In this document: positions 34,927-51,237 of the stretch, piece after piece
Layout of the letters: each line of letters starts with the position of its first letter
Position numbering within the stretch: the stretch's first letter is position 1
Source: Gammaproteobacteria bacterium
Lineage (GTDB): Bacteria > Pseudomonadota > Gammaproteobacteria > GRL18
Direction of reading: 5' to 3'
Assembly: GCA_015488755.1 (NCBI GenBank)
Contig: WFNB01000119.1
Location: forward strand, 1-64,000
Length of the DNA stretch: 64,000 nucleotides
Position numbers and translations under genes: made by a program
Notes under the pieces: model-generated
Databases searched by the model: none
What the model was told of the DNA's origin: nothing
Seen by the model: only the letters and a program-made list of their open reading frames with translations

Positions 34927-35688
34927 ATGGAAAATCAAAACCCATCTGACGATACCACACATTTTGGTTATAAAACGGTTCATACAGAAGAAAAAGTCGC
35001 TAAAGTGGCTGAAGTCTTTCATTCTGTTGCCAGTAAATATGACATGATGAATGATTTAATGTCCATGGGAGTACACCGGATATGGAAGCGTTTAACCATT
35101 GAAAAAAGTGGTGTCCGCCGTGGCCATAGGGTCTTAGATTTAGCCGGAGGCACGGGTGACTTAACCGCTAAGTTTTCTAAAATAGTTGGTGCTAGTGGGC
35201 AGGTTGTTCTCGGTGACATTAATGATTCCATGCTTAAAGTTGGTCGGACTCGTTTATTAGATAAAGGTATTGTCGGCAATGTTGATTATGTGCAGGCCAA
35301 TGCGGAGTGTCTGCCCTTTCCTGATAATAGTTTTGACTGCATCACTATTGCTTTTGGTTTGCGCAATGTCACCGATAAAGATGCCGCCTTAGCCTCCATG
35401 TTTCGGGTCTTAAAACCCGGAGGTCGCTTATTAATTCTAGAATTTTCCAAACCGGTGGCACCGGGTTTAAGCCCTTTATATGATTTCTATTCTTTTAATA
35501 TTTTACCAGTTATGGGCAAAATAATTGCAAATGACTCTGACAGTTACCGCTATTTAGCAGAGTCCATTCGTATGCATCCTGATCAAGAAACCTTAAAAGA
35601 TATGATGACTACAGCAGGTTTTGAGCGTTGTGAGTACAGCAATTTAACCGGTGGCATTGTCGCCCTGCACCGTGGTTTTAAATTTTAA
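34927..35688 (+). CDS. ubiE: Ubiquinone/menaquinone biosynthesis C-methyltransferase
   Basis: [45 protein letters not shown]. Confidence 0.98.
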
Positions 35689-36392
35689 TGACTCAAACAA
35701 CTGAACAAACAAGCAATACTCTCAATGCTGGTAAGCCACTACTTATTCCACTACTAGGTGCTATGGAAGCTGGTTTAAATCAACTCTTTGCCATGGATCC
35801 CGATAGCCTCATCTCTCTATCACGTTTTAAAGGACGTATTATTGCTCTTCATATCAGCGATATTGAGCAATGCTTATACTTTTTCCCTGACACATCAGGC
35901 GTGCAAATTATCAGTCATTATGAAGGCCAAGCCGATACGATTATCAGTGGCTCATTACTGACCTTTGCACGCATGGCAATGAGTAGTGAAAAAGAAAAAA
36001 CTCAGGCTATCTTTAAAGGTGACATTAGCATCAGCGGTGATATTGCTCTAGGACAACATTTTCAGGCACTGTTTAAACAACTGGATATTGATTGGGAAGA
36101 ACACATCTCCCATATTACCGGTGATGTTATTGCCCACTCACTAGGAAATATTGCCAGAGGTTTACTTGGTTGGGGTAAGCAAACACTTAACACCCTCAGT
36201 ATGGATGCCAGTGAATATGTGCAATACGAAAGCAAAGACATTGCCTCAACACCAGAGCTTGAGTATTTTAGTGAACGAATTGATCGCATACGCAGTGATG
36301 TTGATCGAGCTGAAGCTCGGGTCAATCGTTTATTACAAAGCCAATTATCAACGGAACCACACGCGCAACCTTCCAGCAAGCCATCCATATAA
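35688..36392 (+). CDS. ubiJ: SCP2-domain ubiquinone accessory factor
   Basis: Between ubiE and ubiB; SCP2-like domain then C-term coiled coil. Confidence 0.9.
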   Translation: MTQTTEQTSNTLNAGKPLLIPLLGAMEAGLNQLFAMDPDSLISLSRFKGRIIALHISDIEQCLYFFPDTSGVQIISHYEGQADTIISGSLLTFARMAMSSEKEKTQAIFKGDISISGDIALGQHFQALFKQLDIDWEEHISHITGDVIAHSLGNIARGLLGWGKQTLNTLSMDASEYVQYESKDIASTPELEYFSERIDRIRSDVDRAEARVNRLLQSQLSTEPHAQPSSKPSI

Positions 36393-36395
36393 GAA

Positions 36396-38033
36396 GTGTA
36401 TCGAGTGAAAAGCATTACCCATTTTTTCCATTTACTATTTATTAGCCGCATATTACTACGCTATGGTTTTGATGATTTATTAATCAATACCCATTTATTT
36501 CGCCCACTGCGTTTACTACGTGTTTTTACCCCTTCCTTTTGGTTTCGACAACGAACTCGCCGTCCTCGTGGTGAACGCATCCGCAAAGCCTTAGAAGATT
36601 TAGGGCCAATTTTTGTTAAGTTTGGCCAAATTCTCTCCACTCGGCGCGATCTATTACCTGATGACTTAGCCGATGAATTGGCAAAATTACAAGATCAAGT
36701 ACCCCCTTTTTCTGGTGATAAAGCCGTTAAAATTATTGAAGAATCCTTTAAACGACCCATTGAACAAATATTTGCTGAGTTTAATCGTACCCCTCTAGCT
36801 TCAGCATCCATTGCTCAGGTGCATACTGCTACTTTGTTAGATGGTCGTGAAATGGTGGTTAAGGTGGTACGCCCTGATATTGAAAAAGTGATCCGCCGAG
36901 ATTTAGAATTGCTATATCTTATTGCGGATAAAGTTGAAAAATACTGGTCTGAAGGCAAGCGATTGCGCCCCCATGAAGTGGTGGCAGAGTTCGATAAAAA
37001 TATTATTGATGAGCTGGACTTACTTAGAGAAGCTGCCAATGCATCTGAACTAAGACGTAACTTTAAAGACTCACCCCTGCTGTATATTCCCGAGGTTGAC
37101 TGGGATCATTGCCGTAAAAAAGTCATGGTTATGGAGCGTATTCACGGTATGCCGGTCACCAATATGGATGATCTTAAAGCCATGGATATTGATTTTAAGG
37201 CTCTGGCCGAAATGGGAGTCGAGATATTTTTTACTCAAGTATTTCGTGATAATTTTTTCCATGCTGACATGCATCCGGGAAATATTTTTGTATCTAATTC
37301 CGGCCAATACATTGCTATTGATTTTGGTATTATGGGAAGCTTAAGCAGTGATGATCAACGTTATCTGGCAGAAAATTTTCTCGCCTTTTTTAATCGTGAT
37401 TATTATCGGGTAGCAGAGTTGCATGTGCAATCAGGTTGGGTACCTGCTGATACCCGAGTGGATGATTTTGAGTCCGCCATTCGTTCTGTTTGTGAACCTA
37501 TTTTTGAAAAACCCTTACATGAAATTTCTTTTGGCCAGCTTTTATTGCGCTTATTTCAAACCGCTCGACGCTTTAATATGGAAGTACAACCACAATTAGT
37601 TTTATTACAAAAAACCCTATTAAATATCGAAGGTTTGGGCCGGCAACTCTATCCTCAGTTAGATTTATGGGACACCGCCAAACCCTTTTTAGAAAACTGG
37701 ATGAAAGAGCAATTAGGCTTTCGTTCTTTTGCCAAACAAGTGAAACATAATGCCCCTTTATGGATGGAGCAATTACCAGAATTTCCTAGCCATGTCTTTG
37801 ATGTCGTGCAACAAGCTCGCAAGGGACAGTTACGCATTAATTACCAAAGTGACACTCTCAATCGTATTGAACATAAAATTGTTCAACAAACTAAGCGCAG
37901 CACTCAAGCAATTATCAGCTCAGCCTTACTCATTAGTGGTGCAATATTGTATTCACAAAATATGCTTAATGAGGCACAAATTGTTTTTGGACTTGGTAGT
38001 ATCAGTGCGTTATGGCTATTTTTTACATCATAA
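36396..38033 (+). CDS. ubiB: Ubiquinone biosynthesis ABC1/ADCK-family kinase-like protein
   Basis: EDLGPIFVKFGQILSTRRDLLPDDLADELAKLQDQVPPF; FHADMHPGNIFVS. Confidence 0.97.
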   Translation: MYRVKSITHFFHLLFISRILLRYGFDDLLINTHLFRPLRLLRVFTPSFWFRQRTRRPRGERIRKALEDLGPIFVKFGQILSTRRDLLPDDLADELAKLQDQVPPFSGDKAVKIIEESFKRPIEQIFAEFNRTPLASASIAQVHTATLLDGREMVVKVVRPDIEKVIRRDLELLYLIADKVEKYWSEGKRLRPHEVVAEFDKNIIDELDLLREAANASELRRNFKDSPLLYIPEVDWDHCRKKVMVMERIHGMPVTNMDDLKAMDIDFKALAEMGVEIFFTQVFRDNFFHADMHPGNIFVSNSGQYIAIDFGIMGSLSSDDQRYLAENFLAFFNRDYYRVAELHVQSGWVPADTRVDDFESAIRSVCEPIFEKPLHEISFGQLLLRLFQTARRFNMEVQPQLVLLQKTLLNIEGLGRQLYPQLDLWDTAKPFLENWMKEQLGFRSFAKQVKHNAPLWMEQLPEFPSHVFDVVQQARKGQLRINYQSDTLNRIEHKIVQQTKRSTQAIISSALLISGAILYSQNMLNEAQIVFGLGSISALWLFFTS

Positions 38034-38078
38034 ATCCATATCAAGCCAAAAACTTAACTAACCTCTTTAGCTTTACAA

Positions 38079-39077
38079 TTAAAAATTATCACCATCAATT
38101 AAATTACCCAGCCCACCTAAGACGGAGCCCTCACCTTGTGAACCACCATTTTGCGGTGCTGAAGCCAACATTCGACCGGCTAAGCGTGAAAATGGCAGAG
38201 ATTGCATCCAAATTTTACCTGGCCCTTGAACTCGGGCAAAAAATAGTCCTTCACCACCAAAGAGAGCGGACTTAATTCCCCCTACTTTCTGTATGTCAAA
38301 TTCAACCGTTTGTGTCATAGCCACAATACAACCGGTATCCACATGCAGTATTTCCCCTTCTTCTAGTTCACGCTCAATAACCGTACCCCCTGCATGAACA
38401 AAGACCATGCCATCACCTTCAAGACGTTGCATAACAAAACCTTCACCGCCAAATAAACCCGTTAAGATCTTTTTCTGGAAATGAATGCCTATAGCAACCC
38501 CTTTGGCTGCACATAAAAAGCTGTCTTTTTGACAAATAAGAACACCATTTACATTAGGTAAGGTAATGGGAATAATATTGCCAGGGAAGGGGGCACCAAA
38601 GGCCACATGTGCTTTACCGGTACCTTCATGGGTAAAGACAGTGGTAAACATGCTTTCACCGGTTATCAGACGCTTACCAGCGCCTAATAACTTGTCCATA
38701 AAACCACCCTGATTATCATTGTGGGAGCCATCACCAAAAACAGTATCAAGATTAATCGTGGCATCTTTGTACATCATCGCACCAGCCTCAGCCACTGCGC
38801 TTTCACCAGGATCAAGTTCTATTTCTACAAACTGCATCTCAGAACCATGAATAGTAAAGTCAATTTCATCTGACGAAACGGTTGTTACAGGAGGAGGGGC
38901 ACTTACCTGAGAGTTTGCTAACTGTTGAAATTCACCTACTTGACTGATCGGCAACCATTCGGCAAAACCTTCACGCCATGCGTGTCCATCTTTATTGGTT
39001 GTTGTTTGAGCAATAGCATCAGCCAGTGTTAATGGCCCCATTTGCTCACCATTATAACTAAGATACCATGATGACAT
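38079..39077 (-). CDS. GYF_2 (DUF4339)-like domain + AIM24/TIGR00266-family protein
   Basis: N-term WYLSYNGEQMGPLTLADA...WREGFAEWLPI; C-part EIELDPGESAVAEAGAMMYKDATI, CQKDSFLCAAKGV. Confidence 0.87.
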   Translation of the reverse strand: MSSWYLSYNGEQMGPLTLADAIAQTTTNKDGHAWREGFAEWLPISQVGEFQQLANSQVSAPPPVTTVSSDEIDFTIHGSEMQFVEIELDPGESAVAEAGAMMYKDATINLDTVFGDGSHNDNQGGFMDKLLGAGKRLITGESMFTTVFTHEGTGKAHVAFGAPFPGNIIPITLPNVNGVLICQKDSFLCAAKGVAIGIHFQKKILTGLFGGEGFVMQRLEGDGMVFVHAGGTVIERELEEGEILHVDTGCIVAMTQTVEFDIQKVGGIKSALFGGEGLFFARVQGPGKIWMQSLPFSRLAGRMLASAPQNGGSQGEGSVLGGLGNLIDGDNF

Positions 39078-39080
39078 AAT

Positions 39081-39776
39081 TTATTCCTTTGTTTGAAATT
39101 GTTCATTAAGCTGGGTTATGGTTTCAATTGGGAGTTTAAGGCAGTTTGCCAATTGAGTTAAGTAATTTTGTTCTTCACTGGTATCTACTGTAATGGCTAA
39201 AAGAGAGACCATATAAACTTGTTGTGCACTTTCAGCATCATTTACTTGAGCACAGATCTGCTCTAGTGTCGGTGGAGTATCAATACGCTGTTGCACATAA
39301 TCAAAACCATCTTGATCACTATTAATGGCTGTAAGCTGTTGTAAAATTTTTGTTTCTTCATCGGGGTCAATATAACCATCAGCATTTGCCGCAGCAAGCA
39401 TTGCATCAATTAACAAAAGTGCCATTGTTTGTGGTTTCTCTTCTGCAGGTGATGTTTCTACTGCATTAGAGGATATTGGCGGTGGCGCTTTGGGGGGCGC
39501 TGATGAAGTAACTGACGATATAGGTGGTGGAGGCGGTGGTGCTGCTGTTTTAAGCCCTTGAGCCGGTTGAATTGGGGGTGGCATATTAGCACTAGATGTT
39601 GCAGAGCGAGTATTATTTTGATCTTGTGTGAAATGCTCATAGGCTGCAATAGCAATACCCAAAGCCCCCATACCCAAGGCTGCTTTGTTCCCCATTTTAC
39701 CACCTGAAAGAGTGCCTTTAAGTAAGCCTCCCAATAAACTTTGTGCATCAAACATTAAATTGTCCTTATCAAGCAA
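39081..39776 (-). CDS. DUF533/TerB-like protein with Pro-rich linker
   Basis: N-term GGLLKGTLSGGKMGNKAALGMGALGIAIAAYEHF; C-term ALLLIDAMLAAANADGYIDPDEETKIL. Confidence 0.87.
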   Translation of the reverse strand: MLDKDNLMFDAQSLLGGLLKGTLSGGKMGNKAALGMGALGIAIAAYEHFTQDQNNTRSATSSANMPPPIQPAQGLKTAAPPPPPPISSVTSSAPPKAPPPISSNAVETSPAEEKPQTMALLLIDAMLAAANADGYIDPDEETKILQQLTAINSDQDGFDYVQQRIDTPPTLEQICAQVNDAESAQQVYMVSLLAITVDTSEEQNYLTQLANCLKLPIETITQLNEQFQTKE

Positions 39777-39857
39777 ATAATAACTAAAAATAATAGCCTG
39801 TTCATAAATTGAAAACAGGTATCACTCATAAAAAAAGTAGCAATAATCGTAAATCAA

Positions 39858-42800
39858 TCAGCAAAGATCCCAATTCATTTTTGCAGCATGACGACTATGG
39901 GTACTTTGTAGAAACGTTTCATACTTCTCAATAGTAGCCTGCAATAACAAATTTTGATTAAACTGCTTGGTAAATAAGTAACTTTTTTTACCTATATAAT
40001 CCGTTACTTCATCAATTTTTGTGATGAGCATTTTATAAGAATCAAAAGTAAGTGGCTGACTGGCATAGACTTCCATTAAACCATTTTCTTCTATAAATAG
40101 AGCAACGGCTTGGGAAGACATTTTTTTGCTCAAAATTAAGTCATCAAAATAGTTAACAATCATATCCGCTGCTTCTTCATTTTGTACTTCGTTAATTAAG
40201 TGCAGTGCAGGGATTGTGTATTGATTTTCTGAACCAAATCTCATGTTAATGGTATTAGATGGTGCATTGATATTACTTTTTGTATCACGCTCAGACAAAA
40301 CTTTCAAAACATGTAGTTTAAAGAAATGAGTGAACTGAGTGTTCAATATTGAGGCTTCTGATCGATAAGAAGCAAGTAATTTTTTATTTAGCAACTCATC
40401 TACTTTGAGCATAAAAACAGTAAAATAAGTTTGAATAGGCTTGTCAATATCATTCTCAAATTGCTCAATAATATCAATAAATAAAGGTCTATTATTTTTC
40501 CAATGATGACTTAAAAAAAGCAATTCTTCCATATGCATATAGTGTAAACGAATGTGATCAGCCGCACTAAGACCATCAAGTTCATCAACTTTAGTGGAAT
40601 TCATAATTTGCACAATATGAGCACAAATATAAGCAATCATTGAGCGAGCCACAATGAGATCTTGTTCTTTATTTGCATCGTTAATACCAAAACCATAGCA
40701 CTTATCTACAAGCCATTTTTGTGCCATTTCTTGTGTTTTTTTATGTCGTGTACGAAATTTATCTTCACTGACTGCAAACACAATAAGCTCTGTCATAATA
40801 CTGTCGTAGCTTAAACTAAAGACACTATCCAAGCTGACAATATGATCAAACTCTTGATCCAAAACACTCTTAAGTATACGTTCACTTTGACAAACAATGA
40901 TCAATTGCTTCTGTTCTTCATAACCATGTTCATCATCAAAAGAAATATTTTCATCTTCCCATTCTGGTGAAAAATAGAATAGAACCGAATTATCTAAGTC
41001 TGCTTCAATAACAGCAAAATCATCTTCGTCCATACCACCTAATCTGGCAATAGACTGTTTAAATGTAACACTCGGTTGGTACTCATCTTGTTCATTTAAG
41101 CAATTTTTAAAGCCATTGACTGTAGCTTCATCAAGAGCTTCTCTATGCAAGCAAAATTCATAGTGTTGTTGTGGTGAGACTGATTCTAAGCCTAAAAGTT
41201 CATCCTGATCATGAGTTCTCAGATAGTCTGCAACACGATTAATTAAAGACTCATCTTTTTTATAAGCAGAACGTTCAATACCTTCTAATAGCATTATATT
41301 GGTAATTAATTCTGCTTTTTTATTATGTTTTATAATATAATTTATAGTATTGGCTATTTTAGTTTCATCAATATCTTCAGAATGGACACTAGCAAGTAAC
41401 TCTGGAACAATCGTTTTCTTAATCGTTTGTTCAATTGTTACTTCATTTGTTTCTTGCATTAGGTTAAATAATACAGTAAGTAGCTTATTATCTGAGCTAA
41501 TCCTATGAAACAAGTCTGCTTCATGCCATAAACGTTCACTATTATTTTCATTAAAATTATCAAGCAGGCATTCTTTATATTCTTCAACAGCTAAAAATGG
41601 CGTAATAAAATCAATAATAAATTCTTCAGCTGTATTAAATTCAACTAATTTCCAATACATGCAATTTAAGGCATCACTAAAATATTTATTAGCAGACAAA
41701 CCATAAAAATTAATTTGCCGTTTGACCATTTCTTGCCAGCGCTTAAACATGATTTCTAATTTAAAACCATGATAGGAATTCTCGCCATTTAAGAAATTCT
41801 CCCCATAGGGTCGTTCTTTGGTTTGTATTTTCCACTCACTCAACAAGTAGGGTAGCTTGTTAAAAAGTATTCGTTCCTTAATTGCACCTAAGGAAAACTG
41901 ATCTTGCATCCGAATGTATTTTTTATACGCTTGAAGATTTAACCTCTGGCGCATATAAAAACCAAAAGCAGTAATGCCTATATGATGTGTATATTTAGGA
42001 GAGGCACTATTAACACCTTCAGAAATACAATGTTTTGTTTCTAATGCTGAGGTATCAAAGTCGAAAATTTCAACACTAGAATCATCATTAACCCAAATAT
42101 TTCCGGGTTTAAGATCACGATGAATCACTCCTACATTATTGGCTTGCTTTACTGCATTTTCAATATGAGTATAGAGTTTTATTTTTTTATTTCGACTGTA
42201 TGATTTCCATTTATTTGTTTTTAAAAAGCTACTGAGTTCACTACCATTTTTGAATTTTTTAGAGGCCACAAAAATACAGTTTTTCACCATGAAAAATTGT
42301 TCTACTATTTGGGCAATATTTTTTAATAGTCGATCCACATCATCATCACGACCATTATCTAAATGTTGTAAATAAGACTTTAATTTATAAGCCTGTGATT
42401 GATGATTAGTCGCCAAAAGAAAATCAATGGGATCGTTTGCACTTAAGGGGGTGTTATATTTTTTGGCTCTTAGCGAAATAAGTGCTTCTTTAATCCAAGA
42501 ATTAAAGACTAATGTCCGACCTTTTTCCTGAGTTAAAAAATCTTGAAATTTTATAACCCATTCATCTGTTATTCCAGACTTAGTCTCTCTTAGCTGAATA
42601 AAGTAAATATCAAGATTACGCCCAGTTTCTACTGGTCGGGTAATTTTACATTGCTTCTTTTTATTTAAAGAAAATCTTGATTTTGGTTGTAGCTTATTTT
42701 TTAATAGTTGTACGAACTTAGCATCATGCTTAACCACATGTAATGCCAGAAATGCAGAAATTTTATTAATTTCATTTTGATCATAAACACCAAGTTGCTT

Positions 42801-43817
42801 AACTAGGTCATGATTTATCATTGCTTGCCAAATTTTTTGCCCTGATAGCTGCCCAGTATCACTATTCTCTTGGCTACTAATAAAGCCTGCTTCCAGAAAT
42901 TTATCCCATAATCTATCAGCCCATTTTTTATTAATGTGTAAACTTTGCAGAATTTTACTGGAGGTAATATTGGACTTGGTTATTGTAAATGTCTCTTGTG
43001 CCCGCGCTTCAGTTGGACCTCGGTACACTTCATTTAAAAAATTAGCATTATTATCTTTTTCCCAAGGTAAATTAGGAATATGCGTCGTTTGCTTAAACAC
43101 AGATATTAACCTATCCATGCTTTTACCAAAAAATTTTAAATAACGATTAATATTATAATGATAAGGGGTAACATTGAGTATCTCACGTTGTTTTTCTCCC
43201 ACCTTAATTTGACGTGAGGCGCTAACAAAGGCTGCAACCATCGGATCATTATAGGGTCGAAGGTAAATAACACCTGACTGTTGAGCCACCTGATAATTAG
43301 CCTGATCGGAAATAAAAAAAAGGGTTTTTTCTTTTGTAGTGACCTGTTTTAAATATAAATTAAGTTTATTTACCAGAGCCAAAACTTGCCCTGATAACAT
43401 GGGCACGCCCTCATCATCTAAAAAATAAATAATAAGCCTATTATTATTTTTAACTAAGCCTAACTCATGGGGAATAGCATGTTGTTTGATATATTCGATT
43501 ATTTGAATAAATTGCTGAATATCTGCATCTTCTGCTTGAGGGAATAATAATTCAAATTGGAGCTGGCAAACAAAACCCTGTCTAATAGTATTAATACTAA
43601 GGAAAAAGTCACCTTGGGTATTTTCACAGTCATTTATCCACTGATTAATATCAGATAAACAGCTTGAACGATAAATATTGGCATCTGAACGTCTGCTCAT
43701 TTTGCTATAATTATGCGTCGTTGCAAAGTGGATAAATTTTTTGTACGTCTCGCTCAAACCAGTGCTTCTCCAAAAGCTGTGGATAATAATCATCCTTAAA
43801 GGGTTTAAAATATACAT
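39858..43817 (-). CDS. Very large protein (1319 aa ORF) with an embedded Hanks-type Ser/Thr kinase-like domain; other regions unrecognised
   Basis: Catalytic loop GVIHRDLKPGNIWV, DFG-position FDFDTSA, alphaF-like DQFSLGA; true start uncertain (candidate ATG at 43700). Confidence 0.8.
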   Translation of the reverse strand: MYILNPLRMIIIHSFWRSTGLSETYKKFIHFATTHNYSKMSRRSDANIYRSSCLSDINQWINDCENTQGDFFLSINTIRQGFVCQLQFELLFPQAEDADIQQFIQIIEYIKQHAIPHELGLVKNNNRLIIYFLDDEGVPMLSGQVLALVNKLNLYLKQVTTKEKTLFFISDQANYQVAQQSGVIYLRPYNDPMVAAFVSASRQIKVGEKQREILNVTPYHYNINRYLKFFGKSMDRLISVFKQTTHIPNLPWEKDNNANFLNEVYRGPTEARAQETFTITKSNITSSKILQSLHINKKWADRLWDKFLEAGFISSQENSDTGQLSGQKIWQAMINHDLVKQLGVYDQNEINKISAFLALHVVKHDAKFVQLLKNKLQPKSRFSLNKKKQCKITRPVETGRNLDIYFIQLRETKSGITDEWVIKFQDFLTQEKGRTLVFNSWIKEALISLRAKKYNTPLSANDPIDFLLATNHQSQAYKLKSYLQHLDNGRDDDVDRLLKNIAQIVEQFFMVKNCIFVASKKFKNGSELSSFLKTNKWKSYSRNKKIKLYTHIENAVKQANNVGVIHRDLKPGNIWVNDDSSVEIFDFDTSALETKHCISEGVNSASPKYTHHIGITAFGFYMRQRLNLQAYKKYIRMQDQFSLGAIKERILFNKLPYLLSEWKIQTKERPYGENFLNGENSYHGFKLEIMFKRWQEMVKRQINFYGLSANKYFSDALNCMYWKLVEFNTAEEFIIDFITPFLAVEEYKECLLDNFNENNSERLWHEADLFHRISSDNKLLTVLFNLMQETNEVTIEQTIKKTIVPELLASVHSEDIDETKIANTINYIIKHNKKAELITNIMLLEGIERSAYKKDESLINRVADYLRTHDQDELLGLESVSPQQHYEFCLHREALDEATVNGFKNCLNEQDEYQPSVTFKQSIARLGGMDEDDFAVIEADLDNSVLFYFSPEWEDENISFDDEHGYEEQKQLIIVCQSERILKSVLDQEFDHIVSLDSVFSLSYDSIMTELIVFAVSEDKFRTRHKKTQEMAQKWLVDKCYGFGINDANKEQDLIVARSMIAYICAHIVQIMNSTKVDELDGLSAADHIRLHYMHMEELLFLSHHWKNNRPLFIDIIEQFENDIDKPIQTYFTVFMLKVDELLNKKLLASYRSEASILNTQFTHFFKLHVLKVLSERDTKSNINAPSNTINMRFGSENQYTIPALHLINEVQNEEAADMIVNYFDDLILSKKMSSQAVALFIEENGLMEVYASQPLTFDSYKMLITKIDEVTDYIGKKSYLFTKQFNQNLLLQATIEKYETFLQSTHSRHAAKMNWDLC

Positions 43818-43989
43818 CCTATTAGCTTGCTAAGCAAGGCTTAAACATAGGCAGATAATAGCAATTGCATTTTTTGTGCAAACTAACATACAGTGCTGGT
43901 AGTAGCATATTTTTTATGGCAAGATCATCACTAAATTTTTAATTATCTAAACTATTCTAAAACAAAGTCTAAAACGAGGAAATGCATTC

Positions 43990-45201
43990 ATGTCAGATTC
44001 TTTTACACATGTCAGTCATCAATCATGGGGAAGTCGCTTAGGCAACTCTATAAAAGGAATTTTATTTGGCTTATTCTTATTTATTATTGCATTTCCACTA
44101 CTTTTTTGGAACGAAGGGCGAGCCATTGAAACAGAAAAAAGTCTAAAGGAAGGAGCAGCTGCAGTTATTAAGGTAAGTTCTGAGCGCATTGACCCTGCTA
44201 ATGAAGGTAAGTTAGTGTATCTTTCTGGCTTGGCAAACACCAAAGAAGAACTCCATGACCGCTTATTTAATGTCACTGCACAAGCAATCCGCTTATCTCG
44301 AAAGGTCTCTGTTTACCAATGGAAAGAGCACTCTGAGTCTAAAACAGAAAAAGAACTCGGTGGTAGCACAAAAACCACCACAACATATACTTACTCAAAA
44401 GAATGGTCACCCATTCTGACCGCTTCCTCTTCATTTAAACACCCAGAAGGGCATCAAAACCCTAGTATGAAGCGTTATAAAGATCAGACCATTTATGCCA
44501 AAAATGTATCCCTTGGTCAATTTAAACTCAGTTCTGCTCAAATTCAAGACATCTCTGGAGGACAAAGTATTACTCTTTCTGAGAAAAATATCCCTAAAAA
44601 TGTGCAGGCAAGCATTGTTAGTGGTGAAATTTACATCGGTGATCCGAACCAAGAAACTATCGGTGATTTGCGTATTAGCTTTTATGAGACCAAACCAAGC
44701 ACCATAAGTCTTGTTGCTGCACAGGTGGGTAATAGCTTTGCCGCCTACCAAACAGAAGCAGGCAAACCCATCCAATTATTAACAATGGGTGTAGTTACTG
44801 CAAAAGAGATGTTTGCCAATGAACTGGCAAATAATCGTCTATTGACATGGGGCTTGCGTTTTCTTGGCTTTATTATCATGATGATGGGCTTATCAATGAT
44901 TATGAAACCACTAATCGTATTTGCTGATGTCGTGCCGTTTATTGGTAATCTTTTAGGAATTGGTACGAGTTTAATCTCTGCAGTTATTGCGTTTGTCTTT
45001 TCGTTACTTACCATTGCCTTCGCATGGGTATTCTATCGTCCATTGGTAGCGCTGGGACTTGTTGCACTCATTGTTGGGCCTTTAGTTTACCTTAAAAGAA
45101 AAGCCAAAACGAATACCAGTAATACACAAGAAGCCCCTCAAAATAAGCCGGTTAATATACCCTCAAGTAGTGCACCCCCACCTCCGCCGCCAACTATCTA
45201 A
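43990..45201 (+). CDS. TMEM43 (LUMA)-family membrane protein
   Basis: Membrane-anchored N-term GILFGLFLFIIAFPLLFWNEGRAIETEKSLKEGAAAV; long extracytoplasmic domain; C-terminal TM cluster and Pro-rich tail. Confidence 0.85.
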   Translation: MSDSFTHVSHQSWGSRLGNSIKGILFGLFLFIIAFPLLFWNEGRAIETEKSLKEGAAAVIKVSSERIDPANEGKLVYLSGLANTKEELHDRLFNVTAQAIRLSRKVSVYQWKEHSESKTEKELGGSTKTTTTYTYSKEWSPILTASSSFKHPEGHQNPSMKRYKDQTIYAKNVSLGQFKLSSAQIQDISGGQSITLSEKNIPKNVQASIVSGEIYIGDPNQETIGDLRISFYETKPSTISLVAAQVGNSFAAYQTEAGKPIQLLTMGVVTAKEMFANELANNRLLTWGLRFLGFIIMMMGLSMIMKPLIVFADVVPFIGNLLGIGTSLISAVIAFVFSLLTIAFAWVFYRPLVALGLVALIVGPLVYLKRKAKTNTSNTQEAPQNKPVNIPSSSAPPPPPPTI

Positions 45202-48199: not shown

Positions 48200-50266
48200 T
48201 TATTTAAAGCTATTGACTTTATTAATAAATTCAGCCTTTAAACTTTTAGCACTATTATCAGCATAACGTATTTGTATGTAGTGATTAACAATCGTCTGTA
48301 TTAGTAAAGCATCATTAGGAAACTTCTTAATGGCTCTTATTTTTATAGCCTCAGGGCCTTCATTATTAATACCTTTAGCACTAGAAATCAATAAACCCTT
48401 TTTATTTAATTTTTTAATAAATAGTAAATACGTCTCATACACTCTATCTTTTTCTTTATATTGTTTATAAAGATTGTTTGCCTGAAAAATAATTAATAAG
48501 CCTGAAATACTGGTAATTAATAGTAACATCAGTGTTTGCAAACTGTCATTTAAGCCCATCAACTTTAATAATAAGCCTTGCTTTGTTTTATCATAACCTA
48601 ATATCCAATTATTCCAAGTATGTTTCATACTATCAATAGACTGCCTCACTTTCTGATAAGCACGGTAAATTTTTGTTTTTTTCTGGGCAGACAATTCGGG
48701 TAAGTTGGCTAAATTTAACGATGAAAAGCTCAAACCTTCAAGATAGGTCTGAAATATATCAGCTTCAATACGTTCAGGTGGGATCATTGCTGTGGGATCC
48801 ACTCGGAACCAACCTTTATGTTCTAACCAGACTTCTGCCCAAGCATGAGCATTAGCCTGACGAACAAGGTAATAATTACCGATACTATTTTTTTCTAAGC
48901 CCTGATAACCAGTCACAACGCGAGCGGGAATATTAGCTGCTCGCATCAATAGCACAAAACTACTGGCATAGTGTTCACAAAAGCCTCTTTTATAGTTAAA
49001 TAAAAACTCATCACTGGGATTGTTTGTCATAATAGTGGGGTGTTTAGTGTAATAAAAAGGCTGATTTTTAAAATAATTTAAACCGGCCAAAACAATATCC
49101 TGCTTATTTTTAAATTGCTTACGCCATTGCTCACCTAAGGCATAGGTTTTAGGGTTACTACTAGGAGGAAAATATAAAGCATTGTGTAATTCATTTTCTC
49201 TAACAGGGTTTAAGTAAAATTCTGTCATAGATGTCACCCGATATTGAGTAAGTTGGTGAATATTATGTTTATTAATAACTTGTAAATCATTACTTATAAA
49301 AAAACCTTGAATCGTATCACCTTCTATTTTACTTGGCATTTCTAAAGCAAATAACCATTTTTGTTGATGGGGTTCTAGCGTAATGGTATAAGAGGTGGCG
49401 TCTCTGGTTTTTGTCACAATAGCATTAAATGGTTTATGCAGTGCTCTGGGGTTTTCCTGAGTCCATAAAAAACCATCCGTTTTACTTAGCACTGGACCAC
49501 GCCAATATAACTTATCCGCTGTCGGTGGTTTGCCTTTAAAGTCCACACGAAAAGCAATTTCATCAGAATCAACCAAATTACTGACACTACCAGGGTACAT
49601 TTTATCAGATAAACCGGTTTTCCCCATTTGATTATCATCCGGTAAGCTCCAAAGAGGCCCTGGAATTCTAGGAAAAAATAAAAAAAGAATAATAGCAATG
49701 GGCAGAGCCTTACTAAAAAGCTGAATGATTATTTTTATATGTGTGGCTAAAGGAATGGGGTCTTGTGGTTTTCGACTAAAGGCACTAAGCATAAGCACTA
49801 AAATAAAACTCATGACTGATGCAAATAGAGCAAGCAATAAACTTTGAGAATGAAAGAAATAGGTAATTAAAATAAAACAGCCAAGGTAAATAATAATAAA
49901 AATATTACGTTTATCTTGATCATTTTTCACCTCTAAAAATTTTAAACTGATCATAATGCTTAATAAACTGAGCGCAGCTTGCTGAGAAAAATGAAAACCA
50001 TAGCTGGTACTAATAATGATAATTGCACTTGAAATAAGTAGTAGTCGGATCACTCTTTTTGGTAAGCGAATAAATCCTAAGTTGTGGATGCTAAACCACG
50101 CTAATAAGAGAACAACATAAAAAGCAACAAATAGGGGAGCACTTAATAGATGAGGTAATAATAAAGCAAAAATAACAATGGGTAATAGTGTATATGCATT
50201 TATTATAAAGCCCATTTTGGTAAAAGCAGAATCAAGAGTTTTAGCGTTTAACCACTTTATATTCAT
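48200..50266 (-). CDS. TgpA-like transglutaminase (DUF3488 + transglutaminase core)
   Basis: Multiple N-term TMs; KRGFCEHYASSFVLLMRAANIPARVVTGYQG; HAWAEVWLEHKGWFRVDPTA. Confidence 0.92.
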   Translation of the reverse strand: MNIKWLNAKTLDSAFTKMGFIINAYTLLPIVIFALLLPHLLSAPLFVAFYVVLLLAWFSIHNLGFIRLPKRVIRLLLISSAIIIISTSYGFHFSQQAALSLLSIMISLKFLEVKNDQDKRNIFIIIYLGCFILITYFFHSQSLLLALFASVMSFILVLMLSAFSRKPQDPIPLATHIKIIIQLFSKALPIAIILFLFFPRIPGPLWSLPDDNQMGKTGLSDKMYPGSVSNLVDSDEIAFRVDFKGKPPTADKLYWRGPVLSKTDGFLWTQENPRALHKPFNAIVTKTRDATSYTITLEPHQQKWLFALEMPSKIEGDTIQGFFISNDLQVINKHNIHQLTQYRVTSMTEFYLNPVRENELHNALYFPPSSNPKTYALGEQWRKQFKNKQDIVLAGLNYFKNQPFYYTKHPTIMTNNPSDEFLFNYKRGFCEHYASSFVLLMRAANIPARVVTGYQGLEKNSIGNYYLVRQANAHAWAEVWLEHKGWFRVDPTAMIPPERIEADIFQTYLEGLSFSSLNLANLPELSAQKKTKIYRAYQKVRQSIDSMKHTWNNWILGYDKTKQGLLLKLMGLNDSLQTLMLLLITSISGLLIIFQANNLYKQYKEKDRVYETYLLFIKKLNKKGLLISSAKGINNEGPEAIKIRAIKKFPNDALLIQTIVNHYIQIRYADNSAKSLKAEFINKVNSFK

Positions 50267-50268
50267 TA

Positions 50269-51237
50269 TTAAGCCACCTGATAAAGTGCTAGCATTTTAA
50301 GGCAAACATGTTGATGTGTTATTCCTTGACTAATGGCAATGCGTTGCTCAGGCAAGACCAAACCATAACGATCGCCCTTATTATGAGCATCAATAATAAG
50401 GCGGCATAGTTGACTTAAGCGTGATTCAGTATCACCACTTAAGTCGTTCCAATTAAACCAATACTCATGATTATTAGCACCTAAAAAGGTTTTGCTCATA
50501 AGCCCCTGTTCACGAGCATAAGCCTTCCAATGAATATGGTTCAGAGGCTCTCCTTTTTGATACGCTTTAAAACCACTAAAATCATCAAAGCCTCTACCCT
50601 TATCACTTTGGCCTTCACTATTGGAACCATTTAGAGGAATATGAAAAAATGAGGTACTGGGTTGTGGATAAACAATCGCATGAGACTTGAGTTGTATATT
50701 ACCCCATGCATAAAATAATCCCAAAGGATAACAACTTGAGATAGTAAGAACAGGCAACTGAAATAAACCACGCTGCTGGCTTTGAGCAGAGAGATGGATA
50801 ATTGTTTTTTCACCTGAACAGATATCAGAAAAAATAGTATTATTAGGATCTTTTTTAGCAAAACCAATAGCAATTGAATAATGATCATCAGCAATATTCT
50901 GTTGTCTGGCTGTGTTATGTTGAATTACTAAAGGAAACAAAATAGGTTGACAACAAAAAACTGGCTGAATATGAGACAAAGAAAAATGCAAGTTTACTAG
51001 ATTTTTCTGTGTCATATACATAGCAAGCAATGCAATTCCAACCAATAAGAAGGTAAAGAAAAAGATTAATGAATTGGTAAAATTAGTAGCAGCAGCTAAC
51101 ATAATAAAAATAAGTAAAGTAAAGATAAGACCCTCACGGGTAGGTAAAATATAAATATTCTTAGATTGAAGAACCGCTTCGTCGGTTGCTTCTACTCGTT
51201 TTAATAACCATTTCTTTAGTTTACTAATTGCTTTCAT
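50269..51237 (-). CDS. DUF58-family protein
   Basis: Two N-term TMs; GFDDFSGFKAYQKGEPLNHIHWKAYAR; adjacent to TgpA-like gene. Confidence 0.9.
   Translation of the reverse strand: MKAISKLKKWLLKRVEATDEAVLQSKNIYILPTREGLIFTLLIFIMLAAATNFTNSLIFFFTFLLVGIALLAMYMTQKNLVNLHFSLSHIQPVFCCQPILFPLVIQHNTARQQNIADDHYSIAIGFAKKDPNNTIFSDICSGEKTIIHLSAQSQQRGLFQLPVLTISSCYPLGLFYAWGNIQLKSHAIVYPQPSTSFFHIPLNGSNSEGQSDKGRGFDDFSGFKAYQKGEPLNHIHWKAYAREQGLMSKTFLGANNHEYWFNWNDLSGDTESRLSQLCRLIIDAHNKGDRYGLVLPEQRIAISQGITHQHVCLKMLALYQVA

Follow-up and report, generated by a model that had tools for sequence, protein, structure and literature searches.

A recurring AIM24, DUF533 and TMEM43 module with a candidate GYF/poly-proline interface in a gammaproteobacterial genome

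The window analysed here is a stretch of 64,000 nucleotides from a gammaproteobacterium (contig WFNB01000119.1, positions 1 to 64,000), in which four open reading frames encode a GYF_2-AIM24 protein, a DUF533/TerB-like protein, a kinase protein of 1319 residues and a TMEM43-family protein (Table 1). A sequence-only reading had described these genes as one candidate system, and its positions, strands and intergenic distances agree exactly with the ORF calls; namely, the AIM24 and DUF533 genes are separated by exactly 3 nt (39078-39080), and the divergent kinase and TMEM43 genes by exactly 172 bp (43818-43989). The family names that it had given, AIM24, GYF_2, DUF533, TMEM43 and kinase, were borne out by Pfam. 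A promoter and terminator scan of the locus returned about the same site counts as in shuffled sequence.

Table 1. Features of the locus, in window coordinates
Feature	Position	Strand	Basis
GYF_2-AIM24 fusion protein, 332 aa	38079-39077	-	Pfam PF14237 and PF01987; PDB relatives 1yox PA3696 (E 2e-85) and 7z3c AglX/GltJ GYF domain
GYF_2 domain, residues 4-50, candidate poly-proline reader	38928-39068	-	Pfam; 7z3c profile match
AIM24 domain, residues 74-294	38196-38858	-	Pfam
DUF533/TerB-like protein, ORF of 231 aa to TTG 39776	39081-39776	-	ORF call, Pfam
DUF533/TerB-like protein with likely ATG start	39081-39755	-	Homologue starts
DUF533 Pro-rich linker with PPPPPP, candidate GYF_2 ligand	39477-39581	-	Sequence
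DUF533 Gly-rich hydrophobic segment, possible membrane association	39630-39683	-	Sequence, low-confidence helix
DUF533 TerB-like helical domain	39084-39428	-	Structure model and fold match
1319-aa orphan with Ser/Thr kinase domain, outside the conserved module	39858-43817	-	ORF call, Pfam
Ser/Thr kinase domain of the 1319-aa protein, residues ~500-662	41832-42320	-	Pkinase
TMEM43-family inner-membrane protein, 403 aa	43990-45201	+	Pfam; AlphaFold model
TMEM43 C-terminal tail PPPPPP, candidate GYF_2 ligand, predicted cytoplasmic	45175-45192	+	Sequence; family topology

In the fusion protein, the Pfam matches to GYF_2 (3e-12) and then AIM24 (5e-72) lie in a single reading frame and are both over the cut-off. 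A profile made from the GYF_2 domains of 16 fusion proteins matched 7z3c (Myxococcus AglX/GltJ) at 5e-15, with W4, G14-P15, W34, G37 and W41 invariant across the profile; the aromatic/GP signature of a poly-proline-binding GYF domain is present, in the GYF_2 subtype. AIM24 has a solved relative, 1yox (PA3696), and its fold is of the double-stranded beta-helix type, which tends to oligomerise. EOP-1, a fungal protein of the AIM24 family, self-associates (PMC13075794). Several of the fusion proteins carry a Pro-rich linker of their own, so that GYF_2 could bind in cis. Also, seven other gammaproteobacterial genomes in a set of 369 (G049, G091, G107, G142, G187, G295, and G387) have full-length GYF_2-AIM24 with no TMEM43 or DUF533 match, and the adaptor must therefore have further roles or partners.

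The neighbourhoods of AIM24 and GYF_2 genes gave several separate observations. A peptidase M48 gene directly follows AIM24, with or without GYF_2, in three gammaproteobacterial genomes (L041:8048-10153, L042:5254-7193, and L043:1852-3792), and the peptidase is possibly a second partner of AIM24. GYF_2-AIM24 is flanked by a protein of 347-359 aa with no Pfam match and by an SprA-related (PF12118) gene in three genomes whose TMEM43 has a PPP tail (L244:6742-9775, L250:6163-9188, and L251:5373-8385); their labels are delta proteobacterium, Proteobacteria and Desulfobulbaceae. A planctomycete locus (L229:520-1695) encodes an SPFH/YdjI-type-looking protein with a C-terminal GYF_2, another GYF_2 fusion of the membrane-scaffold kind. 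In congeners, an AIM24 gene lacking GYF_2 lies a few kb beyond ubiE-ubiJ-ubiB (L046:1-9056, L047, and L048), and it is this neighbourhood that the GYF_2 fusion occupies in the window (34927-39077).

The DUF533 protein matched PF04391 at 2e-35 (122.6 bits vs a cut-off of 29.6), while its score for TerB (PF05099) was below the cut-off. Nonetheless, its predicted structure matched 2ou3, a tellurite-resistance protein of COG3793, with a Foldseek probability of 1.00 (E 5.9e-3), and on the strength of this modelled fold the label TerB-like, as assigned in the sequence-only reading, is a fair one. Its homologues begin at MFDAQ, for which reason translation is more likely to start at ATG 39755 than at TTG 39776. 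The Gly-rich segment is a helix of low confidence in the model, and its hydropathy is under the usual transmembrane threshold. The proline-rich linker reads TAAPPPPPPISS, and poly-proline linkers are also found in the DUF533 proteins of G014, BB4, Desulfosarcina widdelii, LJ_bin-4625 and others. Of about 30 gammaproteobacterial DUF533 relatives, only those from the window genome, G014, G005 and G139 contain PPPP; a linker with at least PPPP was found in eight genomes with the fusion vs one without it (G392).

TMEM43 (PF07787) was matched at 1e-78 (264.7 bits vs a cut-off of 23.3). In the AlphaFold model, which has a mean pLDDT of 93, a single helix at the N-terminus is followed by a large beta-rich domain and then by three C-terminal helices and a flexible tail; the helices span residues 13-58, 271-304, 316-349 and 351-376, and their orientation is borrowed from the animal homologues. 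In flies and humans, both termini of TMEM43 are cytoplasmic (N-in/C-in; PMC9307560), and the bacterial tail, SSSAPPPPPPTI, which contains PPPPPP, would hence share a compartment with AIM24. Comparison of the model with PDB folds gave no significant match, and the fold thus offers no functional clue. In some other loci, the TMEM43 tail runs into a TPR-like repeat region (L153:9944-11545, L171:8880-10655, and L207:9992-11560), the join being proline-rich in L153 and L171. A TMEM43 gene is also present in a metagenome-assembled genome labelled Bordetella parapertussis (L165, CAMATZ010000026.1), a label that merits checking.

In terms of gene linkage, DUF533 with a proline-rich linker adjoins GYF_2-AIM24 in eight genomes, which belong to Gammaproteobacteria, Desulfobacterota and Acidobacteriota apart from one unassigned genome, so that the adjacency extends over at least three phyla. 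In G014, the two genes are on the same strand and again 3 nt apart but set among different genes; the gap is 13 nt in D. widdelii, the genes overlap by 4 nt in a Holophagae MAG and converge in LJ_bin-4625, and they also adjoin each other in a Desulfobacteraceae MAG and a Thermoanaerobaculaceae MAG. BB4 (G005, JADGDG010000006.1) has the order DUF533, TMEM43 (reversed), AIM24, beside 2-oxoglutarate-dehydrogenase-like genes. The cluster is re-arranged between the window and BB4, and the neighbours that differ among clusters include ubiB, the 2-oxoglutarate-dehydrogenase-like genes, and a glutamate symporter with DUF188; the genes therefore stay together while moving. For TMEM43 itself, proximity to AIM24 was limited to the window genome and BB4: among the best 80 of 400 TMEM43 loci, with flanks extending at most 10 kb, no adjacency to AIM24 was found beyond the genus, and most of these 80 loci have neither AIM24 nor DUF533 as a neighbour.

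The sequence-only reading had also pointed to the poly-proline segments as possible ligands of the GYF-like domain. Of the 49 non-overlapping ORFs of the window, those for DUF533 and TMEM43 alone encode PPPP; likewise, it is confined to these two proteins in the BB4 stretch and to DUF533 in the G014 stretch. For a wider comparison, 400 TMEM43 relatives were found in GTDB with a TMEM43 alignment, the best 80 were kept, and 77 genomes, most of those surveyed being drafts, were tested for GYF_2 and AIM24 together in one frame (the fusion) and for at least three consecutive prolines in the TMEM43 tail past the last membrane helix (PPP). GYF_2, AIM24 and DUF533 were each searched genome-wide in the first 50 genomes; in the other 27, all with complete tails, a search for GYF_2 was followed by a scan of the GYF_2 loci for AIM24. 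Because the first set was non-random, including all PPPP tails, these 27 remaining loci were tested later as a held-out set. PPP tails were found in 13/18 genomes with the fusion vs 2/32 without it in the first set, and in 3/3 vs 1/24 in the held-out set; combined, the figures are 16/21 and 3/56 (Fisher, 1.1e-9). In five fusion genomes TMEM43 lacks PPP, and two of these (G408 and G409) have PPP on DUF533 instead. An unexplained exception is G139/G392, with poly-proline DUF533 and poly-proline TMEM43 yet no match to GYF_2 or AIM24; the TMEM43 of G139 ends in PTPPPPPAM (loci in this genome, L143:9127-9873 and L110:7889-9091), and an assembly gap or another reader domain is suggested to account for the absence. 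Given that the TMEM43 tails track the fusion across the 77 genomes, candidate GYF ligands are the best reading of the poly-proline segments from sequence comparison.

A full four-gene system for membrane surveillance or defence, with signalling by the 1319-residue kinase as the sequence-only reading had it, would fit the position of the kinase gene, which is on the same strand as DUF533 and AIM24 and about 100 nt upstream, the intact-looking HRDLKPGN and DFD motifs within its Pkinase match (6e-9, residues 500-662), and the weak similarity of this domain to PD-T4-6, MkoA, Mad6 and PglW in the defence library. These last matches, however, are confined to the catalytic core, and the NCBIfam scores are far below the curated cut-offs (38 bits vs 460 for Mad6 and 17 bits vs 990 for PglW); a known anti-phage kinase system (BREX PglW, Mad6, Mokosh, or PD-T4-6) was hence rejected. 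The matches obtained from 57 relatives and from a plasmid cover the catalytic domain alone, with no full-length relative in those 57 or among plasmids, and the N-terminal 488 residues matched only themselves in 369 genomes of the class. Scans of GTDB (85k species) and IMG/VR gave no close relative, a phage protein search was empty, and the matches in PHROGs were just to kinase domains and, weakly, to tellurite proteins. Furthermore, the kinase gene is absent from the sister loci in G014 and BB4, and its GC content of 0.324 is below both the mean of 40 genes (0.393) and the values of the flanking AIM24, DUF533 and TMEM43 genes (0.40-0.44). We therefore rejected the kinase as a conserved component, judge its gene to be an unrelated, one-off accessory insertion outside the module, and regard the four-gene system as very improbable. 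AT-rich genes are also present further right in the window (46-52 kb), where a low-GC stretch (48200-51237) contains a TgpA-type transglutaminase gene beside a weak DUF58 match.

That the remaining genes are unrelated housekeeping genes brought together by chance would suit the rarity of TMEM43 near AIM24 and the many TMEM43 loci with neither neighbour, but it is scarcely credible in view of the re-arranged cluster of BB4 beside different genes and of the DUF533/GYF_2-AIM24 pair recurring in other phyla. More weight, though still that of an unlikely explanation, belongs to shared ancestry, chiefly in Desulfobacterota, as the cause of the tail-fusion co-occurrence with no mutual binding, the DUF533-AIM24 linkage then reflecting a separate function. 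Indeed, 9/16 concordant genomes are Desulfobacterota, and although the differing independent pairs on the TMEM43 tree almost always follow the fusion, well-supported branches hold just 2-5 such pairs, too few for a sign test. Against ancestry, the association persists upon permutation within phyla, as assigned from record titles (p = 0.0016), the tail state changes at least eight times on the tree, and separate cases are found in Gammaproteobacteria, Acidobacteriota and Verrucomicrobiota; also, the linked DUF533 is itself poly-proline, and PPP is rare at other C-termini: of the remaining ORFs at these loci, 12/864 have it within their last 40 residues. Of the four-gene proposal, therefore, the kinase part does not stand, while the AIM24/TerB-like/TMEM43 core belongs together by the DUF533-AIM24 linkage in at least three phyla and the tail-fusion tracking of TMEM43; the co-occurrence in other genomes disfavours chance adjacency for these three, and a recurring three-protein module is supported.

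We consider it rather probable that this module is a scaffold at the inner membrane, in which GYF_2 displayed by AIM24 binds the poly-proline of both the TMEM43 tail and the DUF533 linker. AIM24 would self-assemble and thereby present multiple N-terminal GYF_2 domains, which may bind the cytoplasmic PPPPPP tail of inner-membrane TMEM43 and also the linker of TerB-like DUF533. The AIM24 oligomer would then tie several tails and linkers into clusters beneath the inner membrane, and the complex would probably organise a membrane patch or sense its state, with TerB as an output or a cap. AIM24 genes occur in ter clusters, and TerB sits at the surface of the inner membrane (PMC5822837); by analogy with Ter systems and with AIM24 of mitochondria, the module may have a role in stress or in membrane organisation.

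Among known systems, the ter-associated AIM24/TerB networks share AIM24 and TerB-type domains with the module, and their TerB is reported at the membrane surface; such networks in group I ter clusters are attributed to Anantharaman et al. 2012, as cited in PMC5822837. The locus does not, however, qualify as a Ter system, since no TerD-family or TerC gene was found among the 17 window ORFs run through Pfam, neighbouring genes included; its TerB domain is of the DUF533 type with a poly-proline linker, and no described counterpart was found for the GYF_2 fusion and TMEM43. GltJ/AglX of Myxococcus (7z3c) has a GYF_2-type domain with the conserved W, GP, W...G...W pattern, but GltJ serves gliding motility (its NCBIfam match scores far under the cut-off), whereas GYF_2 here is fused to AIM24. 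Mitochondrial Aim24 and fungal EOP-1 and IDC4 share the AIM24 domain, and scaffold or self-association roles are reported (PMC13075794, PMC6162560); GYF_2 is not described in them, and the fungal proteins have a Pro/Gln-rich N-terminus, whereas the prolines here are mainly on the partners of AIM24. Animal TMEM43/LUMA belongs to the same Pfam family and is likewise predicted to have a single helix at the N-terminus, a large loop domain and three helices towards the C-terminus, while the poly-proline tail was noted for a subset of the bacterial members, whose tails were those compared.

Our search of open-access papers found none that links AIM24 or TMEM43 to GYF_2 or DUF533, and no bacterial partner or role for TMEM43 or AIM24. 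Both proteins are conserved from bacteria to humans; TMEM43 is the protein of arrhythmogenic cardiomyopathy type 5, and AIM24 is involved in mitochondrial membrane architecture. We tentatively propose that bacterial TMEM43 and AIM24, whose eukaryotic kin are two organelle-membrane proteins, might be joined, together with a TerB-like effector, in a multivalent GYF/poly-proline scaffold, an undescribed membrane-organising complex of bacteria in at least four phyla. This provides a concrete partner hypothesis for both TMEM43 and AIM24, with a predicted interface between a short tail peptide and a domain of about 60 residues, and, if true, would mean that multivalent GYF/poly-proline scaffolding is used by bacteria.
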